64,000 nt of DNA, taken from assembly GCF_017939745.1 (NCBI RefSeq), contig NZ_JAGKQQ010000001.1, positions 7,579,299 through 7,643,298 of the forward strand, given 5' to 3'. Within the stretch, counting starts at the first letter, position 1, and every line of letters starts with the position of its first letter. The position numbers were made by a program, and so were the translations under genes. Origin of the DNA: Gemmata palustris. GTDB lineage: Bacteria > Planctomycetota > Planctomycetia > Gemmatales > Gemmataceae. The notes under the pieces are model-generated. The model searched no databases and was not told where the DNA came from. It saw nothing but the letters and a program-made list of their open reading frames with translations. Of the stretch, positions 2,770 through 59,520 are shown piece by piece.

Positions 2770-3357
2770 GTGACACACATTGACGAACCGCGGTTGGAAT
2801 CGGATCTGGGGTACCGCTTCGGGTACGTCGCGGGATTCATGGGGTTCGGGGCGGACGACATCGCGGCCATTCACGGCGCGGCGCCGGTCCTCGCGCCGCT
2901 CGTGCCGGGCCTCGTCGATGCCGTGTACAACAAGCTCTTCCAACAGGACGCGACCTGGCGCCACTTCGTCCCGCGCCAGCACGGGTACCAGGGCGAGGTG
3001 CCGAAGACCGTCGACCAGCTCGCAATGGACCACCCGCAGATCCAGTTCCGCAAGCAGCACCTGGGCCGGTACCTCGCGGCCCTCGTGACGAAGCCCTACG
3101 ACGGCAAAATGGTCGAGTACCTCGACATGGTCGGGAAGATGCACACGCCGAAGGCGGGGAGCAAGGATCTCGACGTGCCGCTCGTGCAGATGAACGCGCT
3201 ACTGGGCTTCGTGGCCGACGCGCTGACCGCCACGATCCTGGGATTGGGGCTCGATCGGGACACCGAAGTGAAGACGCTCCGCGCGTTCGGTAAACTGCTG
3301 TGGATTCAAAACGACCTGGTTACGCGCCACTACCAGGGCGAAGTCGTGAGGTCGTAA
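2770..3357 (+). CDS. Protoglobin (single-domain haem sensor globin)
   Basis: A 195-residue protein of the protoglobin family. The N-terminal helix region GYRFGYVAGFMGFGADD and the F-helix segment QIQFRKQHLGRYLAALV are characteristic; H97 is the likely proximal haem ligand. It has no methyltransferase, GGDEF or kinase output domain, so it should bind O2, NO or CO as a stand-alone haem protein, perhaps for NO detoxification. The start is GTG with a strong AAGGGAG site 6 nt upstream. The last codons and the stop lie inside a perfect 44-bp inverted repeat. The divergent Rrf2 regulator is the likely controller. Confidence 0.88.
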   Translation: MTHIDEPRLESDLGYRFGYVAGFMGFGADDIAAIHGAAPVLAPLVPGLVDAVYNKLFQQDATWRHFVPRQHGYQGEVPKTVDQLAMDHPQIQFRKQHLGRYLAALVTKPYDGKMVEYLDMVGKMHTPKAGSKDLDVPLVQMNALLGFVADALTATILGLGLDRDTEVKTLRAFGKLLWIQNDLVTRHYQGEVVRS

Positions 3358-3445
3358 AGTCATAACGTCGCAAGTCGTAAAGTCGAAGACCTCAACCATC
3401 GGGTCTTCGACTTTACGACTTGCGACGTTATGACTTTACGACCTC
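3348..3445. repeat. Perfect 44-bp inverted repeat between protoglobin and secDF
   Basis: Arms 3348-3391 and 3402-3445 are exact reverse complements around a 10-nt loop. Each arm carries two copies of GTCGTAAAGTC. The left arm includes the last codons and stop of the protoglobin gene; the right arm ends 8 bp before the stop of secDF on the other strand. As RNA it would be a very stable hairpin for both converging transcripts. It lacks a clear U-tract, so it may stall or stabilise transcripts rather than act as a classic terminator. Confidence 0.95.
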
Positions 3446-8633: not shown

Positions 8634-10010
8634 TCAGTCCCCGCGGAGCTTGAGGTTGAACTGTCCGAGGCGCTCGCGGACCTCCGTGAGCGAGGTCTGA
8701 CCGAAGTTTTTCGCTTCGAGCAGTTCGTCGGCGGTACGCTGGACGAGTTCGCCCAGGGTGCCGATGTTCAGTCGGTTCATGCACTTGCGCGCACGAACGG
8801 AGAGGTTCAGGTCGCTCACCGGTTTGTTGAGCGTGGCCTGTTCTTCCGGGCTGAGGTTCTGCTGCGGGCGGTAGCGGAACTCGTACTGCTGCCCCTGGTC
8901 GAGCGACTGCCCGATGCGCAGTTGCTTCGCGTTCATGATGATCTTGATCTCTTCGAGCGAGGTTTCGCCGAAGTTCTTGCTCGCGAGCAGTTGCGATTCG
9001 GTGACGCGCGTGAGGTCGCCGAGCGTGCGGATGTTCATCCGCTTGAGGCAGTTGCGGCTGCGGACCGACAGCTCGAAGTCGGTGATCGGGATCTCGAGCA
9101 CGACGCTGTTGGCCCGGTTGAGTTGCTCGTCTTCCGGGTCGTAGTGCATCGAGAGCGACGCTTCGGAGTCCTTCACGAACAGCTTGGCGCGCTCGTCGCG
9201 CGGGTCGGCCTTCGCGAGCCGGCGGTAGCAGTCCGCGGCCTTGTCGTACATGTCGTTGTCTTCGTACAGCACGCCGAGGTTGTACAGCACGCCCTTACCA
9301 ACGGGCGGGTACTTCAGGCACCGCTCGTAGTACCCGATGGCGTCGTGGTCGTTGCCCTGCTGGTCGTTCAGGAAGCCCAGGCGGAACAGGGCCGCCGAGT
9401 GCCGGGGTTCGAGCTCAACGGCGCGCTCGAAGTACTTCGCGGCCCGGGGGATATCGCCCTCGGCCTCCGCGAGCGCGCCTTCCTGGTAGTAGTATTCGGC
9501 GTTGTGCGCGGCCGCGTCTTTCAGCTTGGTGAGCGTGGTCTTGGCTTCGCCGAGGTGCCCCTGCAACCGGAGCACGCCGGCGCGCTGGAGTTGTACCGAT
9601 TGCGGCGCGTAGCCCGACTTTTCGGCCTTCTCGAAGGCTTTCACGGCCGCGTCGTAGTGGTCGGTGTTGTCCGTCTCGTCTTCTACATACGGCCGCGACT
9701 GGCCGAGCGTAACGTGCGCCTGGCCGAGGAAGAACGCGGCCAGCGGGCCTTCCGCTTTGTGCAGGTGGTCCACCGCGGAGCGGACGTGACCGAGGAAGTA
9801 GTTGGCGACACCGAGCTTGAGGTGGATCTTCTTTTGTTGGGGAGCGGCGGCGACCGCGAGCCGCTTCGTGAGGGTGTCGATGATGTCTTTGAGGGCACGA
9901 ACCTGCGGGCCGCCCTGGGCCAACCCTTCCCGCAACCGCCCGACCATACCGCCTTCAAAGTCTTCGCGCTCGACGAGAAGCGCCCGCAGATCGATGAGAG
10001 ATTCCGTCAC
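8634..10010 (-). CDS. TPR protein with two C-terminal RNA polymerase alpha-CTD modules
   Basis: A protein of about 458 residues. The N-terminal two thirds is TPR solenoid (for example AEYYYQEGALAEAEGDIPRAAKYFERAVELEP). The last 150 residues contain two alpha-CTD folds in tandem: FELSVRSRNCLKRMNIRTLG...NFGETSLEEIK and LNLSVRARKCMNRLNIGTLG...NFGQTSLTEVR. Both keep the Arg equivalent to E. coli alpha R265, which contacts UP-element DNA; Asn268 is kept only in the first copy. It is not rpoA, because the assembly domain is absent. It probably bridges DNA or RNA polymerase to partner proteins. The GTG at 10010 with GGGAG upstream is preferred; an ATG at 10040 is also in frame but has AGGA directly against it. 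Confidence 0.85.
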   Translation of the reverse strand: MTESLIDLRALLVEREDFEGGMVGRLREGLAQGGPQVRALKDIIDTLTKRLAVAAAPQQKKIHLKLGVANYFLGHVRSAVDHLHKAEGPLAAFFLGQAHVTLGQSRPYVEDETDNTDHYDAAVKAFEKAEKSGYAPQSVQLQRAGVLRLQGHLGEAKTTLTKLKDAAAHNAEYYYQEGALAEAEGDIPRAAKYFERAVELEPRHSAALFRLGFLNDQQGNDHDAIGYYERCLKYPPVGKGVLYNLGVLYEDNDMYDKAADCYRRLAKADPRDERAKLFVKDSEASLSMHYDPEDEQLNRANSVVLEIPITDFELSVRSRNCLKRMNIRTLGDLTRVTESQLLASKNFGETSLEEIKIIMNAKQLRIGQSLDQGQQYEFRYRPQQNLSPEEQATLNKPVSDLNLSVRARKCMNRLNIGTLGELVQRTADELLEAKNFGQTSLTEVRERLGQFNLKLRGD

Positions 10011-10330
10011 GTCTGGCTCCCAGGGGGCCGACCGTTCCATTCCTCGGACCGGGTTCCGCGGAACCCGAAAGTTCCACTTGGGGACCCGACCGAGCGCCCA
10101 CTAAGGGGAGGAACAGTGCGACCCAAAACTCACTAGCCGGGCCTTGCCGCGCGTCGGCAGATCGCGCGAGAGCCGGCGAAAATAACGTGCCGTGCCGAAG
10201 AGAGGCATAATAACGACCGCACCTGCGTTTTGGCAAGACCACCCAAACGGGCGCTGCGCGGCGCTCGGCCCGGCGAATCGTTGACGCGGGGCCTCTCATC
10301 CCTTAATGTCGGCGACTGAGCAAGCCAGCC

Positions 10331-10417
10331 CTCCTCACCTCCCTCCCTTAAAAATGGAGGGGCCAAAACCGACCCGCGCTCTTTCTCCCCTTCCTTTGAG
10401 GGAGGGGTTGAGGGCCG
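10331..10417. repeat. Purine/pyrimidine hairpin repeats (CCCTCC...GGAGGG type), two copies
   Basis: Two short hairpins lie in the gap before the hydrolase gene: CCCTCC...GGAGGGG at about 10341-10362 and CTCCCCTTCC...GGGAGGGG at about 10385-10407. They belong to the same family as those at 12600-12722, 15399-15557 and 47598-47640. The rest of the 10041-10436 gap shows no gene. Confidence 0.65.
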
Positions 10418-10436
10418 GTCTCTTCGAGGTTTCCTC

Positions 10437-12587
10437 ATGCTCTCGCGCCGCGACGCTCTTGCGCTTCCTGCTGCCGCCGGCCTCCTGTCGTCTCGCCCCT
10501 TCCTGCAATTCGCATTTGCCGCCGACACCGAAGATCCCACGAAGGTGTTCACCGACGGCAAAAAGCCGACCGACGCGCGCCTCGGCGCGCCGAAGACGCT
10601 CAACGATTACTTCCCGTTCGTCGTGCCGAAGTCGAAAGAGGCGTGGGAAGCGCGCCGGAAGCAGCTCCGTGAACAGTTGCTCGTCGCCACGGGCCTCTGG
10701 CCGCTGCCGGAGAAGACGCCGCTCAACGCGACCGTTCACGGCAAGATCGATAAGGGCGATTACACGATCGAGAAGGTGTACTTCGCCAGCACCCCGGGCC
10801 ACTACGTGTGCGGGAACCTGTACCGACCGGTCGGCCCCGACTCCAGCAAACCCGCGAAGTTCCCCGGGGTACTGTTCGCACACGGCCACTGGGAAAACGG
10901 CCGGCTCCATGATGCGGGCGAAAAGGCCGGCAAAGCGAACGTCGATGGCGGCGGCGAACCGGACATGGATCGCGGTCGGTACTTCCTGCAGGCACTACCG
11001 GCGACACTCGCGAAACTCGGGTTCGTCGTGTTCCACTACGACATGGTGGGCGTCGCCGATAGCACCGCGATCCCGCACGGGAAGGGCTTCGCGGATGCCG
11101 AAGGCGAACTGCGACTGCAAAGCGCGATGGGCCTCCAAACTTGGAACAGCGTTCGCGCGCTTGACTTCCTCGCGGGGTTGCCCGACGTGGACACCACGCG
11201 CCTGGGCATGACCGGCGCGAGCGGCGGCGGCACGCAGACGTTCATGCTCGCGGCCATTGATGACCGACTCGCGGTGGTGTTCCCCGCGGTGATGGTCAGT
11301 ACGGGGATGCAGGGCGGGTGCGTGTGCGAGAACTGTTCGCTGCTCCGCGTGAACACCGGTAACGTGGAAATCGCCGGGTTGTTCGCGCCCAAACCCCAGG
11401 CCATGAGTGCCGCGAACGACTGGACGAAGGAGCTGATGACAAAAGGCTACCCCGAACTCCAACAGCTTTACGGGCTGTACGGGGCGAAGGACAAAGTTGC
11501 GGCAAAAGCGTGGCTCGAATACGGTCACCAGTACAACGTCCACGCCCGCGAAATGATGTACGCTTGGCTCCAGAAACACCTTCAGGGCAAGGGCGAAACA
11601 GTGAAGGAGCCGGCGTTCAAGCCGGTCGCGCCGACGTCGGGGTTGAGCGTCTTCGACGACAAGCACCCGCGCCCGAAGGACGAACTCGGCGCGAAGGCAC
11701 TCCGCGAAGTGATGGCGAAAGCCAGCGATGAGCAAATCGCGAAACTCACCCCGAAGGACGCCGAGAGCCTGAAGGAGTTCCAGCGCGTGGTGGGGACCGC
11801 ACTGCAGATGATGGTGAACAGCGAACTACCCAAGGAGATCGCGGTTCGGACCGGACCACTGGAGTCGAAGGGCGACGGTCACACCGTTCACCGCGCCGTG
11901 TTCGGTCGCAAGGATGAGAAAGACGCGGTGCCGGCGTGCGGCGTGATCGGAGCGAAATTTACCGGCGACAGGGTCGCGATCTGGCTGCACCCGCAGGGGA
12001 AAGCGAGTCTCTTCGAGGGCGGTAAAGTCGCACCCGCGGCGAAGTCGATCACCGATGCCGGTGTCGCGATCCTCGCCCCGGATCTGCTCGGTACCGGCGA
12101 AAACAGATTCCCGAAATCGTTCCCCGTGGACAAGGGCTTTGCGGGTTACACACACGGCTACAACCGCACGCTGCTCGCCAACCGCGCCCACGATGTGCTC
12201 ACGCTGATCGCGTTCGGCCGGTCTAACCCCGCGTGGAAAACGCTGTATCTCGTCGGATGGAACGAGTTTGGCCCGGTTGCGATTCTCGCGAAGGCGCTGG
12301 CCGGCGACGCGGTCGCGAAGACCGCGGCCGACATGAACCAGTTCAAGTTCGAGGACATCAAGGACACAGCCGATCCGATGCTGCTGCCCGGCGCGGTGAA
12401 GTACGGCGGGCTGGGCGCGTTCCTCGCACTGTGCGCGCCGGGCGAGGTGCTCGTTCACAACCACAAGGGCACCGGGAGCGGTCAAGTGTCGCGCGCCGCA
12501 TACGAGGCCGCGGGCGCCGGCAAGAATCTGACCCGCAGTGCCGAGAAGCTCGAACCCGCGAAGGTCGTTGAATGGTTGGTGAAGTAA
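10437..12587 (+). CDS. Secreted two-domain alpha/beta hydrolase (acetyl-xylan-esterase-like)
   Basis: A 716-residue protein with a twin-arginine-type leader (MLSRRDALALPAAAGLL) ending near AFAAD. The first half is an alpha/beta hydrolase: GVLFAHGHWENGR carries the oxyanion strand and GASGGGT the nucleophile (S262). The second half repeats the fold (GVAILAPDLLGTGENRFPKS, then LYLVGWNEFG), but the expected GxSxG elbow reads GWNEFG, so the second domain is probably inactive. Similar proteins are numerous in planctomycetes and are predicted esterases for polysaccharide acetyl groups. The substrate is not known. It stands alone, with hairpin repeats on both sides. Confidence 0.8.
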   Translation: MLSRRDALALPAAAGLLSSRPFLQFAFAADTEDPTKVFTDGKKPTDARLGAPKTLNDYFPFVVPKSKEAWEARRKQLREQLLVATGLWPLPEKTPLNATVHGKIDKGDYTIEKVYFASTPGHYVCGNLYRPVGPDSSKPAKFPGVLFAHGHWENGRLHDAGEKAGKANVDGGGEPDMDRGRYFLQALPATLAKLGFVVFHYDMVGVADSTAIPHGKGFADAEGELRLQSAMGLQTWNSVRALDFLAGLPDVDTTRLGMTGASGGGTQTFMLAAIDDRLAVVFPAVMVSTGMQGGCVCENCSLLRVNTGNVEIAGLFAPKPQAMSAANDWTKELMTKGYPELQQLYGLYGAKDKVAAKAWLEYGHQYNVHAREMMYAWLQKHLQGKGETVKEPAFKPVAPTSGLSVFDDKHPRPKDELGAKALREVMAKASDEQIAKLTPKDAESLKEFQRVVGTALQMMVNSELPKEIAVRTGPLESKGDGHTVHRAVFGRKDEKDAVPACGVIGAKFTGDRVAIWLHPQGKASLFEGGKVAPAAKSITDAGVAILAPDLLGTGENRFPKSFPVDKGFAGYTHGYNRTLLANRAHDVLTLIAFGRSNPAWKTLYLVGWNEFGPVAILAKALAGDAVAKTAADMNQFKFEDIKDTADPMLLPGAVKYGGLGAFLALCAPGEVLVHNHKGTGSGQVSRAAYEAAGAGKNLTRSAEKLEPAKVVEWLVK

Positions 12588-12599
12588 CGGAGAAGAACC

Positions 12600-12722
12600 C
12601 TAACCTCTCCCCTCCCTTCTCTTAAGAAGGAAAGGGAGAACGACTCCCGCTCGCTGGTGCCGGCGGTTTACTCGATCGCACCCCGCATCAACTCCTCCTC
12701 CCTGAAAAGGGCGGGGAGGTTC
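12600..12722. repeat. Hairpin repeats of the CCTCCCTT/AAGGAAAGGG family, two copies
   Basis: The gap between the hydrolase and hflC holds CTCCCTTCT-CTTAAG-AAGG...GGGAG at about 12612-12638 and CCTCCCTGAAAAGGGCGGGGAGG at about 12699-12721. Both are purine/pyrimidine-biased dyads with a TTAAG- or AAAA-like centre, the same design as the copies inside the 14770-15690 gene. Confidence 0.65.
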
Positions 12723-12734
12723 TGGAAAGCCCGT

Positions 12735-13790
12735 ATGCGCCGCTCCCTCATCGTTGTCGCGTTGCTCCTCGTCGGGCTGTGGCTCAGGTCCGCGTTCTTC
12801 GCGGTGGACGCGGCCGAGTTCGTGTACGTCACGCGGTTCGGCCACGTCGAAGCGATCCACGACGGCGGAACCAACGCCGGGTTGCACGTCAAGGCCCCGT
12901 GGCCCATCGATTCCGTGCTGCGCATGGACCGGCGCGTGCAGTCGTTCGACCTGCCCGCGGTCGAAGCGCTCACGCGCGACCCCGTGACCCGCACCGTCGA
13001 CAAGACGCTCGCGGTCGATGCGTTCGTGACGTGGAAGATCCCCGATACCGAATCCGCGGACCGGTTCGTGAAGACCGTCCGCACCCCCGAACAGGCCCAG
13101 AAGATCCTCGGCCCGCTCATCAACGGGCGCCTCGCGGCGGTCATCAGCACGATGCCGATCGAAGACCTGATCGGGGTGACCGACACACAAACCACGCTCT
13201 CCGCGGTCACCGGCGGGTGGGTCACTGCGCTATCCGAATCGGCGTTCCGTACCGATGATTCCCGGCTCATCGACGAGCGGAACGAGCGCGTGCGCCGGCG
13301 GTTGCTCGGCACGGAAAACTTGCACGGCGGCCTCGCGAACCCGACGGACGACATCCGCACGAAGGCCCTCAGCGAGTACGGCATCCAGGTCATCGACATC
13401 CGCGTGCGCCGGTTCAGTTACCCGAACGCCGTGCGCGGGAGCATCGCAGAGCGCATCCGCAGCGAGCGCGCGAAGAAGGTGGCCGATTACGAGAGCGACG
13501 GCCGCAAGCGCGCCGCGGACATTACCACCGACGCCGACCGCGCGGCTCGCATCATCGAAACTGATGCGAAAGCCCAGAAGACCGTGATCGAGGGCCAAGC
13601 CAACGCCGATGCCGCCCGCATCCGCGCCGCAGCCTACGCCCAGGACCGCGAATTCTACCTGTTCCTGGAACAACTGCGGTCCTTCCAGGCGATGCTCGCC
13701 GACACCCGCGACGTGCTCTTGCTCACCACCAAGCACCCGCTGCTACGGATCATTCAAGGGCCGCCGACCCCGGCTCCGGCGCCGAAATAG
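12735..13790 (+). CDS. hflC: SPFH/band-7 protein, HflC-like
   Basis: A 351-residue inner-membrane protein with one N-terminal anchor (RSLIVVALLLVGLWLRSAFF) and an SPFH domain facing the periplasm. The core VTRFGHVEAIHDGGTNAGLHVKAPWPIDSVLRMDRR, then YGIQVIDIRVRR and the end DREFYLFLEQLRSFQAML, match HflC in order. An Ala/Glu-rich helix (KAQKTVIEGQANADAARIRAAA) is the coiled coil of the family. HflC and HflK form a cage around the protease FtsH. The ATG at 12735 has GGAAAG upstream and leads directly into the anchor; the frame is open further upstream through a repeat. It is followed by hflK after 30 bp. Confidence 0.87.
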   Translation: MRRSLIVVALLLVGLWLRSAFFAVDAAEFVYVTRFGHVEAIHDGGTNAGLHVKAPWPIDSVLRMDRRVQSFDLPAVEALTRDPVTRTVDKTLAVDAFVTWKIPDTESADRFVKTVRTPEQAQKILGPLINGRLAAVISTMPIEDLIGVTDTQTTLSAVTGGWVTALSESAFRTDDSRLIDERNERVRRRLLGTENLHGGLANPTDDIRTKALSEYGIQVIDIRVRRFSYPNAVRGSIAERIRSERAKKVADYESDGRKRAADITTDADRAARIIETDAKAQKTVIEGQANADAARIRAAAYAQDREFYLFLEQLRSFQAMLADTRDVLLLTTKHPLLRIIQGPPTPAPAPK

Positions 13791-14769: not shown

Positions 14770-15690
14770 TTACTCGCGCAACAACAGCGGCTTGCGCTCA
14801 CTCTCGGTCAGCGCGCCGCTCACAACATCGGCTCGCGCCGCAGCGCGTTCGGCGCCGGCCGCGTGGCGGTTGCCGGCCCGGGCGTGAGCTTCGGCCAAGT
14901 ATACCCGCACGCGCGAATCTCCCGGCCTCTGCTCTTTTGCTTCCATTAGTGCCCGAAGCGCCTTGCACAGCATCTCCTCGCAAAACACGTCATCGCGTTT
15001 GGAATCGGCGTCCTGCTCTCTCACGAGCAAAAGCAGCCCGACGCCGCGATGAAACGCTTCACCGAACCGGTCGCGGGTGTTGACTGCGATCTCGCGCAAT
15101 TTGATGTGCGCGGTCACCAGATGCGATTGCAACGCACTCGGACCAGCTTGTGCGTCTGCGACGAACTGTTCGAGGTGGCACTTCGCTTCGGGATAAGAGG
15201 CACCACGCAAGTACAACTCCGCGAGTTGGAACCGGAACATCGGCTGGTCCGCGTGCCGCCGAACGTACCCTTCGAGATGAGTCGCGGCGCCGAGGTGGTC
15301 GTCGCGTTCCAAGCACTTCGCGACGTGGACCAGCGAATCATCTTCGCCCGGGGCTTGGGCGGAAGTGGACGCCCCACCTGCACTTGGCACAGGTCTTTCT
15401 CCCTCTTCCTTCTTAGGGAGGGGGGACGGGGGCATAGGTTCTGCCTGTAACCCCTCCCCAACCCCTCCCCTAAACGGAGAGGGGCTTAAAACCGGCGCTT
15501 GTGATGTGGTGCCTGTCGCATTTGATTCTGTTCCCCCTTCATTTTTAGGGAAGGGGGTTAGGGGGTTAGGTTGCCTTCGCTCCTCTGCCTGCCCCGCGCT
15601 CGCTGGAACTGGTGGCGGGTTCTGCGGCGCGCGCAGGGACTCGCACCCGACAACGATAACAGCGAGCACCAATAATAGCGCAACCCGCAT
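14770..15690 (-). CDS. TPR lipoprotein with repeat-encoded linker
   Basis: A 306-residue lipoprotein: the signal peptide ends in VVGC with the lipidated Cys at 16. Residues about 20-110 are a Pro/Gly/Glu-rich linker, and the C-terminal part is a TPR-like helical repeat domain (HLGAATHLEGYVRRHADQP, ELYLRGASYPEAKCHLEQF). Three palindromic repeats in the DNA encode three similar linker peptides: NPLTPFPKNEGG, LSPSPFRGGVGEG and PPSPLPKKEEGE. It is convergent with hflK, 10 bp apart. Probably an envelope scaffolding protein; partners unknown. Confidence 0.75.
   Translation of the reverse strand: MRVALLLVLAVIVVGCESLRAPQNPPPVPASAGQAEERRQPNPLTPFPKNEGGTESNATGTTSQAPVLSPSPFRGGVGEGLQAEPMPPSPLPKKEEGERPVPSAGGASTSAQAPGEDDSLVHVAKCLERDDHLGAATHLEGYVRRHADQPMFRFQLAELYLRGASYPEAKCHLEQFVADAQAGPSALQSHLVTAHIKLREIAVNTRDRFGEAFHRGVGLLLLVREQDADSKRDDVFCEEMLCKALRALMEAKEQRPGDSRVRVYLAEAHARAGNRHAAGAERAAARADVVSGALTESERKPLLLRE
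15399..15557. repeat. Three palindromic elements inside a coding region
   Basis: Hairpins at about 15399-15420 (CTCCCT...AGGGAG), 15463-15484 (CCCCTC...GAGGGG) and 15533-15557 (CCCCCTTC...GAAGGGGG). All lie in frame in the lipoprotein gene and are translated in the same phase as similar Pro-rich peptides. The same family occurs between genes at 10.3, 12.6 and 47.6 kb. Confidence 0.8.
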
Positions 15691-26834: not shown

Positions 26835-26878
26835 GCCCGTGCAAGCAATGTGAGTGCCCCCACATTGCTTGCACGGGC
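26835..26878. repeat. Perfect 18-bp inverted repeat in a divergent promoter region
   Basis: GCCCGTGCAAGCAATGTG (26835-26852) is exactly mirrored at 26861-26878 around an 8-nt loop. It lies in the 206-bp gap between the divergent beta-propeller and sulfatase genes, about 60 bp before the sulfatase start. There it could be an operator for a dimeric regulator, or a leader hairpin. Confidence 0.85.
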
Positions 26879-39759: not shown

Positions 39760-39821
39760 TTCGCCGGTGACAAAGTCAAAGGTCTCGACAAGAGACGACC
39801 TTTGACTTTGTCACCGGCGAA
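39760..39821. repeat. Perfect 25-bp inverted repeat after the FG-GAP gene
   Basis: Arms 39760-39784 and 39797-39821 are exact reverse complements with a 12-nt loop, 55 bp past the stop of the FG-GAP gene. This makes a strong 3'-end hairpin. The rest of the 39705-40012 gap shows nothing recognisable beyond the leader of the next gene. Confidence 0.92.
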
Positions 39822-46942: not shown

Positions 46943-47563
46943 CTACGCGGCCTTCTTCGCGTCGGCCGCGGCGGTCGATTCCCACTTGGTCGCGGCGGCC
47001 TTGAGCGCCGGGTGCGTGACGAACAGGTGCCACACCACCGCCTGGAACGCTTCCGCGTGCGGGGTGACGTGGGCGGCGTTCACCGTGGGCACGATCACGC
47101 AGGCGTCCGCGACCTTCGCGGTGTACCCGCCGTCGCGCCCGACGATCCCGCACACGGTCGCGCCGACGGTCTTCGCGTGCTGGACGGCGCGCACGAGGTT
47201 CGGGCTGACGTTGCGCTCGAGGTCGCCGCCGCCGACGGAGAACACGAGGACGGCGTCCTTCGCGTTCAGCCGGCTGCCGCGGAGCCACTCGACGAACACC
47301 GTCTCCCAGCCCTCGTCGTTGGTGCGCGCGGTGAGTTCGGACACGTTGTCGGTCGGCGAGTACGTCTCGATGCCCGCGATCTTGCGGAAGTCGTTGACGG
47401 CGTGCGATGCGTTCGCCGCGCTACCGCCGACGCCGAGGATGAACAGGCGCCCGCCGCGCCCGCGCACGCTCGCGAGCGCGTCCACGACCTTGTCGATGGC
47501 ACCGGTATCGAGCCGGGCAATGATTTCGCTCGCTTCGGCGAGGAACTGCTGCGTGAAGGACAT
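46943..47563 (-). CDS. gmhA: Sedoheptulose 7-phosphate isomerase (SIS domain)
   Basis: A 206-residue SIS-domain protein: FILGVGGSAANASHAVNDFRKIAGI is the phosphosugar-binding loop of the GmhA family, followed by DAVLVFSVGGGDLERNVSPNLVRAVQHAK and a C-terminal helix with Glu and His (HAEAFQAVVWHLFVTH) where GmhA has catalytic residues. It should convert sedoheptulose 7-phosphate to D-glycero-D-manno-heptose 7-phosphate. The first ATG consistent with the domain is at 47563; the longer open frame upstream is a shadow of hddC. It lies 51 bp upstream of gmhB. Confidence 0.88.
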   Translation of the reverse strand: MSFTQQFLAEASEIIARLDTGAIDKVVDALASVRGRGGRLFILGVGGSAANASHAVNDFRKIAGIETYSPTDNVSELTARTNDEGWETVFVEWLRGSRLNAKDAVLVFSVGGGDLERNVSPNLVRAVQHAKTVGATVCGIVGRDGGYTAKVADACVIVPTVNAAHVTPHAEAFQAVVWHLFVTHPALKAAATKWESTAAADAKKAA

Positions 47564-47597
47564 TCGAGCGACTCCGTTCGCTGTAGGATCAGAGAAC

Positions 47598-47640
47598 CTA
47601 ACCCCCCGCCCCCCTTCCCTAAGAAGGAAGAGGGAGCGGG
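47598..47640. repeat. Hairpin repeat (CCCTTCC-CTAAG-AAGGAAG family) between gmhA and hddC
   Basis: CTAACCCCCC followed by CCCCTTCCCTAAGAAGGAAG and AGGGAG: the clearest copy of the purine/pyrimidine palindrome family. It sits in the 119-bp gap inside the heptose operon. Confidence 0.75.
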
Positions 47641-47682
47641 ATTCGCCCCGTCCCTTGATTGGGTCAGGGGCGCACTGGCACC

Positions 47683-48396
47683 TTACGCCGCGCGGCTCAG
47701 GACGAACTGCTCGGCCTCGCGCAGGCCCGAGGGCGAACCGATCTCGTAGAACCGGTTCGTCACCTCGAAGCCGACCATTTCGCCGCCCGCAACGAGCGCG
47801 CTGTACAGTTCGGCGAGGTCCGACACCTGCTCCGCCGGGATGCGCTCGATCGCGGCCCGGCGCAACAGCGACAGGCCGTAGTCGATGTGCGTCATGTCCG
47901 GGGTCGCGTCCCGCTTGCTGTACCGCAACAGGCGCCCGCGCTGGAAGACCACGTTGCTCTTGTCGAAGCTGTTCTCGTTGTGGAACACCGTCATCAGCCC
48001 GAGCGCGGCGGGCGGCAGAGCGTTGAACGCGCGCGCGTAGTCCACATCGAGGAGCGAGTCCCCGTACAGCACGAAGCACCCGGCGCCGAGGAGCGGCAGC
48101 GCCCGGCGCACCGCGCCGCCGGTTCCGCGCAGGGTCGGGCCGTCTTCCGAGTACCGGACGCGGAGCCCGAACCGCGCGCCGTCGCCCACGTGGTCCCGGA
48201 TCTGGTCCGCGAAGTGGCCGACGCACATCACGACTTCGCGGAGCCCCTGCTCGTACAAGTCCTCGAACTGGTGGTCCACGAACGGGCGCCCGGCGAGCGG
48301 CACCAGCGCCTTGGGGATCGCCTTCGTGACGTCCCCCAACCGGGTGGCCTTTCCACCGGCGAGGATCAGAACGGGCGTCGAAGCGAGATCCGTCAC
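47683..48396 (-). CDS. hddC: Heptose-1-phosphate nucleotidyltransferase (HddC-like)
   Basis: A 237-residue nucleotidyltransferase: VLILAGGKATRLGDVTKAIPKALVPLAGRPFVDHQ is the activating-nucleotide loop, and FVLYGDSLLDVDY the metal-binding Asp region. The length and sequence style fit HddC, which makes GDP-D-glycero-D-manno-heptose. The base used (GTP, ATP or CTP) cannot be read from sequence with certainty. The start is GTG at 48396. It lies between hddA and gmhA. Confidence 0.82.
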   Translation of the reverse strand: MTDLASTPVLILAGGKATRLGDVTKAIPKALVPLAGRPFVDHQFEDLYEQGLREVVMCVGHFADQIRDHVGDGARFGLRVRYSEDGPTLRGTGGAVRRALPLLGAGCFVLYGDSLLDVDYARAFNALPPAALGLMTVFHNENSFDKSNVVFQRGRLLRYSKRDATPDMTHIDYGLSLLRRAAIERIPAEQVSDLAELYSALVAGGEMVGFEVTNRFYEIGSPSGLREAEQFVLSRAA

Positions 48397-59420: not shown

Positions 59421-59520
59421 GGCGAACGGCCGGCGTGAGCCGGCTCGGTGAAAGTTACCTGGACGGAGGACGTGACCGGGACGCGATCGCTCACCAGCCG
59501 GCTCACGCCGGCCGTTCGCC
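59421..59520. repeat. Perfect 25-bp inverted repeat filling an intergenic gap
   Basis: Arms 59421-59445 and 59496-59520 are exact reverse complements (core GGCCGGCGTGAGCCGGC) around a 50-nt loop. The left arm begins one base before the ATG of the HAD gene; the right arm ends one base before the ald stop. The element is thus the entire gap between the two co-directional genes. Confidence 0.92.

Follow-up and report, generated by a model that had tools for sequence, protein, structure and literature searches.

The window analysed here, a 64-kb stretch of the Gemmata palustris genome (64,000 nucleotides), contains a predicted lipoprotein gene with three palindromic DNA elements inside its reading frame, along with several related copies between genes. 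These features are given below; the bit scores and E values refer to R1, the covariance model of the repeat, for which 11 copies served as the basis.

14770..15690, minus strand: host gene, predicted lipoprotein with a weak TPR-like domain (open reading frame and our own gene caller)
15394..15585, minus strand: inserted mosaic block A> <B A>, approximately residues 36-99, about 64 codons (protein alignments)
15525..15575, minus strand: hairpin 1, type A (AACCTAACCCCCTAACCCCCTTCCCTAAAAATGAAGGGGGAACAG), translated PNPLTPFPKNEGGTE; R1 71.4 bits, E 5e-21
15446..15492, plus strand: hairpin 2, type B (CCCCTCCCCTAAACGGAGAGGGGC on the plus strand), minus-strand translation LSPSPFRGGVGEGL; R1 16.2 bits, E 0.0024 (weak)
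15393..15443, minus strand: hairpin 3, type A variant, translated MPPSPLPKKEEGERP; R1 64.1 bits, E 1e-18
12594..12644, plus strand: intergenic copy of hairpin A; R1 52.9 bits; called genes end at 12587 and start at 12735
47592..47642, plus strand: intergenic copy of hairpin A; R1 71.3 bits; genes end at 47563 and start at 47683
10319-10369, plus strand, and 10379-10423, minus strand: intergenic inverted pair of degenerate copies; R1 18.5 and 18.3 bits; genes end at 10040 and start at 10437

The product of the lipoprotein gene consists of 306 residues, with a signal peptide, Cys16 within a lipobox-like VVGC motif, and a weak match to TPR_19 (E 0.0087, under the Pfam cut-off). The mosaic block is located between Cys16 and the TPR-like region, that is, in the linker to which the original prediction had assigned the hairpins, and all three hairpins are evident both in the sequence itself and in the R1 matches. 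Read in one frame on the gene strand, they translate as NPLTPFPKNEGG, SPSPFRGGVGEG and PPSPLPKKEEG. Hairpins 1 and 3 are of one type (A) and share the same orientation; the middle one is a related palindrome of a different type (B) that has a weak R1 score and the opposite orientation. The insert would lengthen the linker from the lipidated Cys to the TPR-like domain. At the RNA level, the block folds better than shuffled sequences (z = -3.1).

Between positions 10000 and 17000 of the window, searches with Rfam covariance models yielded only sub-threshold matches, none over the gathering score. The window also contains a perfect 44-nt inverted repeat with a 10-nt loop (3348-3445), made of repeated ACTTTACGAC units and located between convergent genes. 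The 35-nt arm of this repeat has no further occurrence in the genome, so that it is probably a unique, strong terminator-like hairpin. Perfect inverted repeats are also found at 39760-39821, 59421-59520 and 26835-26878 (arms of 25, 25 and 18 nt, respectively), with sequences unrelated to the hairpin family.

Throughout the genome, the hairpin recurs far beyond chance expectation: the 20-mer CCCCTAACCCCCTTCCCTAA is found, with up to 3 mismatches, 68 times in 9.23 Mb compared to 3 times for the reversed control. The R1 model scores at least 150 places and yields at least 149 matches in the same genome, in many genes as well as in intergenic DNA, with DNA similarity extending across 51 nt and scores of up to 80 bits. 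The consensus of the repeat is AACCTAACCCCC(T/C)AACCCCCTTCCCTAAGAAGGAAGGGGGAACAG, and its typical arrangement is a mosaic unit in which A is followed by a spacer, usually of 27 or 51 nt, and then by B in the opposite orientation. Inverted A> <A pairs are also frequent, many of them with an 88-bp offset (138-bp units), and the centre of such pairs varies between copies. The distance between A and B is divisible by three in 32 of the 35 copies inside genes and in 9 of the 11 remaining ones, which hints at a compatibility with coding that is inherent in the A-B unit and does not stem solely from selection at the individual genes, although the latter count is low and may include intragenic copies.

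Beyond this genome, R1 matches are present in 45 of the 95 genomes of the family. Among the matches listed in a search of 84,980 species, the exact 25-nt hairpin is found in Planctomycetota (Gemmata sp. IIL30, Zavarzinella formosa, other Planctomycetota MAGs and a record labelled Singulisphaera) and in one Anaerolineae MAG. In the latter (Chloroflexota MAG AS06rmzACSIP_193), the exact hairpin occurs on three contigs (L188, L197 and L198), which may be due to convergence, to horizontal spread or to planctomycete contigs binned in error.

The location of the repeat relative to genes was assessed in a sample of 80 regions around the best R1 matches, which contain 88 repeat clusters. A cluster was considered intragenic when the highest-scoring frame was identical for both 240-bp flanks and remained open across the repeat; the scores came from a codon model for which 271 long open reading frames were the training set. 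By this test, which is strict enough for the lipoprotein of the window itself to fail it, 52 of the 88 clusters (59%) are intragenic, compared to 1288 of 2236 random positions (58%), and 50 (57%) remain so when a minimum length is required on both sides. Thus, the sampled copies do not avoid genes. The original prediction that the family is otherwise intergenic describes the remaining copies in the window but breaks down genome-wide, given these 50 clusters in genes. For the full set of copies, the intragenic share is possibly lower, because the sample consists of the best-conserved copies and the weaker matches are less often intragenic (9 of 22) than the top-scoring ones (41 of 66). Relative to the gene, 43 of 74 copies are in the sense and 31 in the antisense orientation, and the encoded peptides read EPNPLTPFPKKEGGTEP or SAPPSFLGKGVGGLGS. 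The same strict test places 3 of 15 exact-hairpin copies within genes in Gemmata sp. IIL30 and 0 of 8 in Zavarzinella; with samples this small, and a borrowed codon model in one of the runs, we do not claim a difference between the lineages.

The genes that harbor the repeat were identified by Pfam and NCBIfam matches, with the inserts located in or between domains. They encode PheT, TilS, Mfd, SelB, QueG, RarA/MgsA, the CCA-adding enzyme, RecD2, RsmB, CobW, GalT, MobA, ALDH, a chalcone-synthase-like enzyme, an E2 acyltransferase, a penicillin-acylase-type hydrolase, PSD1 proteins, a class V aminotransferase (cysteine desulfurase), and a PNKP ligase and a PUFA synthase with two inserts each. 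In the PUFA-synthase-like gene, which codes for 2150 residues (L106:34-6483), the two separate palindromic inserts have opposite orientations and lie outside the recognised domains. The PheT model (TIGR00472) matches as two stretches flanking the insert, and the TilS model (TIGR02432) likewise matches as two stretches. Comparison with solved structures delineates the extra segments more precisely: in PheT, where the insertion falls inside a folded domain, residues 574-610 of the query face a single residue (539) of 2rhs_B; in the cysteine desulfurase, query residues 84-142 are aligned with 92-105, and in the penicillin-acylase-type hydrolase, 480-536 with 525-537. An AlphaFold model of the insert-bearing cysteine desulfurase (pLDDT 48, shallow alignment) was left unused. 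A second copy of PheT was looked for in the genome and none was found, and therefore the insert-bearing PheT is presumably functional.

These hosts bear directly on the possibility that the repeats are ordinary extragenic REP- or terminator-like hairpins, the copies in genes being products of over-long open reading frame calls or pseudogenes. Such an explanation would fit the window, where 4 of the 7 model matches are intergenic, and also locus L087, which lacks a spanning open frame, suggesting that some insertions may break genes. We nevertheless regard it as very improbable, given that conserved domains flank the insert on both sides in known housekeeping proteins and that both flanks, 240 bp each, score as coding in a shared open frame at 50 sites. 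At L087 (G000:C1:4758235-4758423), the flanks look coding in the same frame, and at two loci in the sister species G009 (L147 and L292), flanks that look coding in one frame surround a repeat block with stops or a broken frame; L147 includes a run of N. These are possible cases of genes inactivated by insertion or of assembly errors.

A different scenario attributes the similar peptides to convergence of low-complexity, Pro/Gly-rich linkers, with the resemblance at the DNA level arising from codon bias. Indeed, Pro-rich sequence is common in linkers, to which several of the sites belong, and a short Pro-rich linker is also present in those lipoprotein orthologues from which the repeat is missing. 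However, convergence is hardly credible in the face of similarity across 51 nt of DNA with such high scores, the insertion within a folded domain of PheT and, counting against it at most sites, the occurrence of the same repeat in intergenic DNA and antisense in genes. No distant orthologue was seen to have the same peptides in its linker while lacking the palindromic DNA, a finding that would have pointed to convergent linker composition; the palindrome-free orthologues have a short and different Pro-rich linker.

The shared reading phase of the three lipoprotein hairpins, emphasized in the original prediction, is confirmed but turns out to be mostly forced by stop codons: at 41 of 50 host sites, a single phase is stop-free over the whole inserted block, so the common phase is weak evidence. 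A preference beyond the effect of stop codons had seemed apparent for hairpin A alone, where 30 of 31 sites with at least two open phases used the preferred one; this claim was dropped because of the whole-block result.

Comparison of orthologues reveals sites that are empty in some relatives and differently filled in others. The flanks of the pheT insertion are contiguous in the sister species G009 and G010, compared to which the window genome has 96 additional nucleotides (32 codons). In the PNKP ligase, site 2 is empty in G010, G011, G026, G025 and G020 and filled in G000, G009, G015, G022 and G019, and site 1 carries differing inserts in most of the congeners compared. In G011 and G017, the cysteine desulfurase loop that follows TSGATEANNLAIFG has no insert, and different palindromic inserts occupy it in G024, G013, G020, G012 and G010. 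The lipoprotein, for which orthologue searches gave matches in 73 of the 95 genomes of the family, follows the same pattern, with the presence and absence of the insert that the original prediction had proposed to look for: in protein alignments, the orthologues L012, L014 and L016 have no mosaic block and instead possess a short, different, Pro-rich linker, and those of G009 and G010 carry palindromic inserts of differing make-up. For CobW, the site is filled not only in the window genome but also in Gemmata sp. IIL30 and a further planctomycete MAG. No clean target-site duplication is visible in the comparisons of flanks with relatives, because the nearest of these are too diverged.

Occupation of the same loops across species and genera, as in CobW, together with the strong RNA fold of the lipoprotein block, could be taken to indicate domestication, whereby the peptide or the mRNA hairpin performs a regulatory or structural role (for example, translation pausing between domains) and is kept by selection. 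This appears quite improbable, although somewhat less so than the preceding alternatives. No functional relationship connects the hosts, a single loop can be filled by different palindromes and in either orientation, and the insert is absent from close relatives, which points to tolerance of the insert rather than need for it.

Most probably, these hairpins are copies of a dispersed palindromic repeat of Gemmata-like planctomycetes that is presumably mobile and is tolerated within proteins in the form of disordered loops. The repeat is dispersed, it resides in frame in many conserved genes, and the same loops are empty in some relatives and hold different palindromes in others. Mobility of the element is suggested by the dispersal and the empty sites. 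Under this scenario, the repeat would copy itself into many places, in intergenic DNA as well as in genes, and the copies in genes would persist provided that the insert is a multiple of three, has a stop-free phase, and lands in a linker or a surface loop. The host protein would be made normally but with an extra peptide of 20-70 Pro/Gly/Lys-rich residues, probably disordered and neutral. As for the agent of mobilisation, no enzyme was identified: the genome has three Y1 transposase (PF01797) loci, none of which has an R1 match within 1.5 kb, and mobilisation by a RAYT was accordingly rejected. The idea of a MITE derived from a local transposon found no support in the one wide inverted pair examined, which consists of two inserts in one PUFA-synthase gene.

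A bolder extension of the mobile-repeat reading, which we consider rather doubtful, is that survival within genes is part of the design of the element, which would be a selfish repeat adapted to coding DNA that repeatedly re-colonises tolerant loops of essential proteins across the family and serves as a source of new protein loops. The basis for this proposal is the divisibility of the spacing by three, which extends to the copies outside the strict gene set, and the presence of a stop-free phase on both strands of the element, which reads as a bland Pro/Gly/Lys-rich peptide. If this were the case, the repeat would represent a continuous supply of new protein loops across a bacterial family.

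A close parallel is provided by Rickettsia palindromic elements (RPEs) and Wolbachia palindromic elements (WPEs), short palindromic repeats that are found both in intergenic regions and in frame in unrelated protein genes, where they encode tolerated peptides, with inserts at the same sites in orthologues (PMC3767692). The resemblance to Rickettsia palindromic elements noticed in the original prediction is borne out by the orthologue, genome-wide and phase comparisons: the Gemmata family is present in many copies in one genome, resides both in spacers and, in frame, within protein genes that are unrelated to each other, and is missing from orthologues (of PheT, the PNKP ligase, the cysteine desulfurase and the lipoprotein) that retain the rest of the protein. 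There are also clear differences, in that the hosts of RPEs and WPEs are intracellular bacteria with small genomes whereas those considered here are free-living planctomycetes with 9-Mb genomes, and in that the Gemmata family forms the mosaic A-spacer-B unit, has different palindromes per loop between species and does not avoid genes in the sampled copies. We regard the Gemmata family as functionally analogous to, and presumably distinct from, RPEs, with no sequence relationship apparent, and do not assign it to them.

REPs, small palindromes that form inverted dimers or clusters, are mostly reported from intergenic regions, but some are located in ORFs and encode 20-82 residues (PMC3733652). 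Such intragenic REPs, tagged with GTAG or CGTC, are known from Opitutus terrae, Thauera, Xanthomonas and R. conorii, their host ORFs include repair, tRNA-synthetase and ligase genes, and in two Xanthomonas species REPs occupy about the same site in recB; planctomycete REPs are mentioned in general terms only (PMC3733652). The Gemmata repeats are likewise small palindromes in inverted pairs or clusters, partly inside ORFs. However, their main consensus has neither GTAG nor CGTC at the 5' base of the hairpin, with GTAG appearing only at the 3' side of the AACCTACC subtype, no RAYT neighbour was found, and genes hold more than half of the clusters sampled, unlike the mostly intergenic REPs (PMC3733652). 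As the tag is not in its defining place and no RAYT is associated, we do not assign the family to REPs. The inverted A> <A pairs, many at the 88-bp offset, also resemble the terminal inverted repeats of MITEs, but the centre between the A copies differs from copy to copy, and a parent transposon with these ends was not found for the one widely spaced pair that was looked at.

In the open-access literature, no description of this repeat in Gemmata or other planctomycetes was found. Thus, the phenomenon is known, but the family, the host group, the load on core genes and the reuse of loops by different palindromes appear to be new. Translated palindromic DNA has been treated as a peculiarity of Rickettsia and Wolbachia, along with scattered REP insertions; the present case is of genome scale, involves free-living planctomycetes and reaches genes as central as pheT, tilS and that for cysteine desulfurase. 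The empty and differently filled sites in congeners make it possible to ask how proteins gain loops, which sites tolerate them, and if the repeats supply raw material or are no more than neutral passengers. There is also a practical warning for sequence analysis: NPLTPFPKKEGG or SPSPFRGGVGEG shared by unrelated planctomycete proteins reflects repeat DNA, not protein homology. A search with the full-length lipoprotein yields 24 other matches in its own genome, and those listed are brought in solely by these repeat peptides.

The repeat itself seems to accommodate insertions. In G010, hairpin A contains the same extra peptide (ASSSAGPVSGASRGPAT / ASLSAGPVSGASRGPAT) in its loop both in the lipoprotein gene (L011) and in the unrelated gene for the cysteine desulfurase (L145), which suggests that a second element was nested in hairpin A and spread with it. 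In the CobW of Gemmata sp. IIL30 (L224), the in-frame peptide YSGPREALLTGPESKQ splits hairpin B between SPSP and RGVGEG, an apparent further nested insertion.
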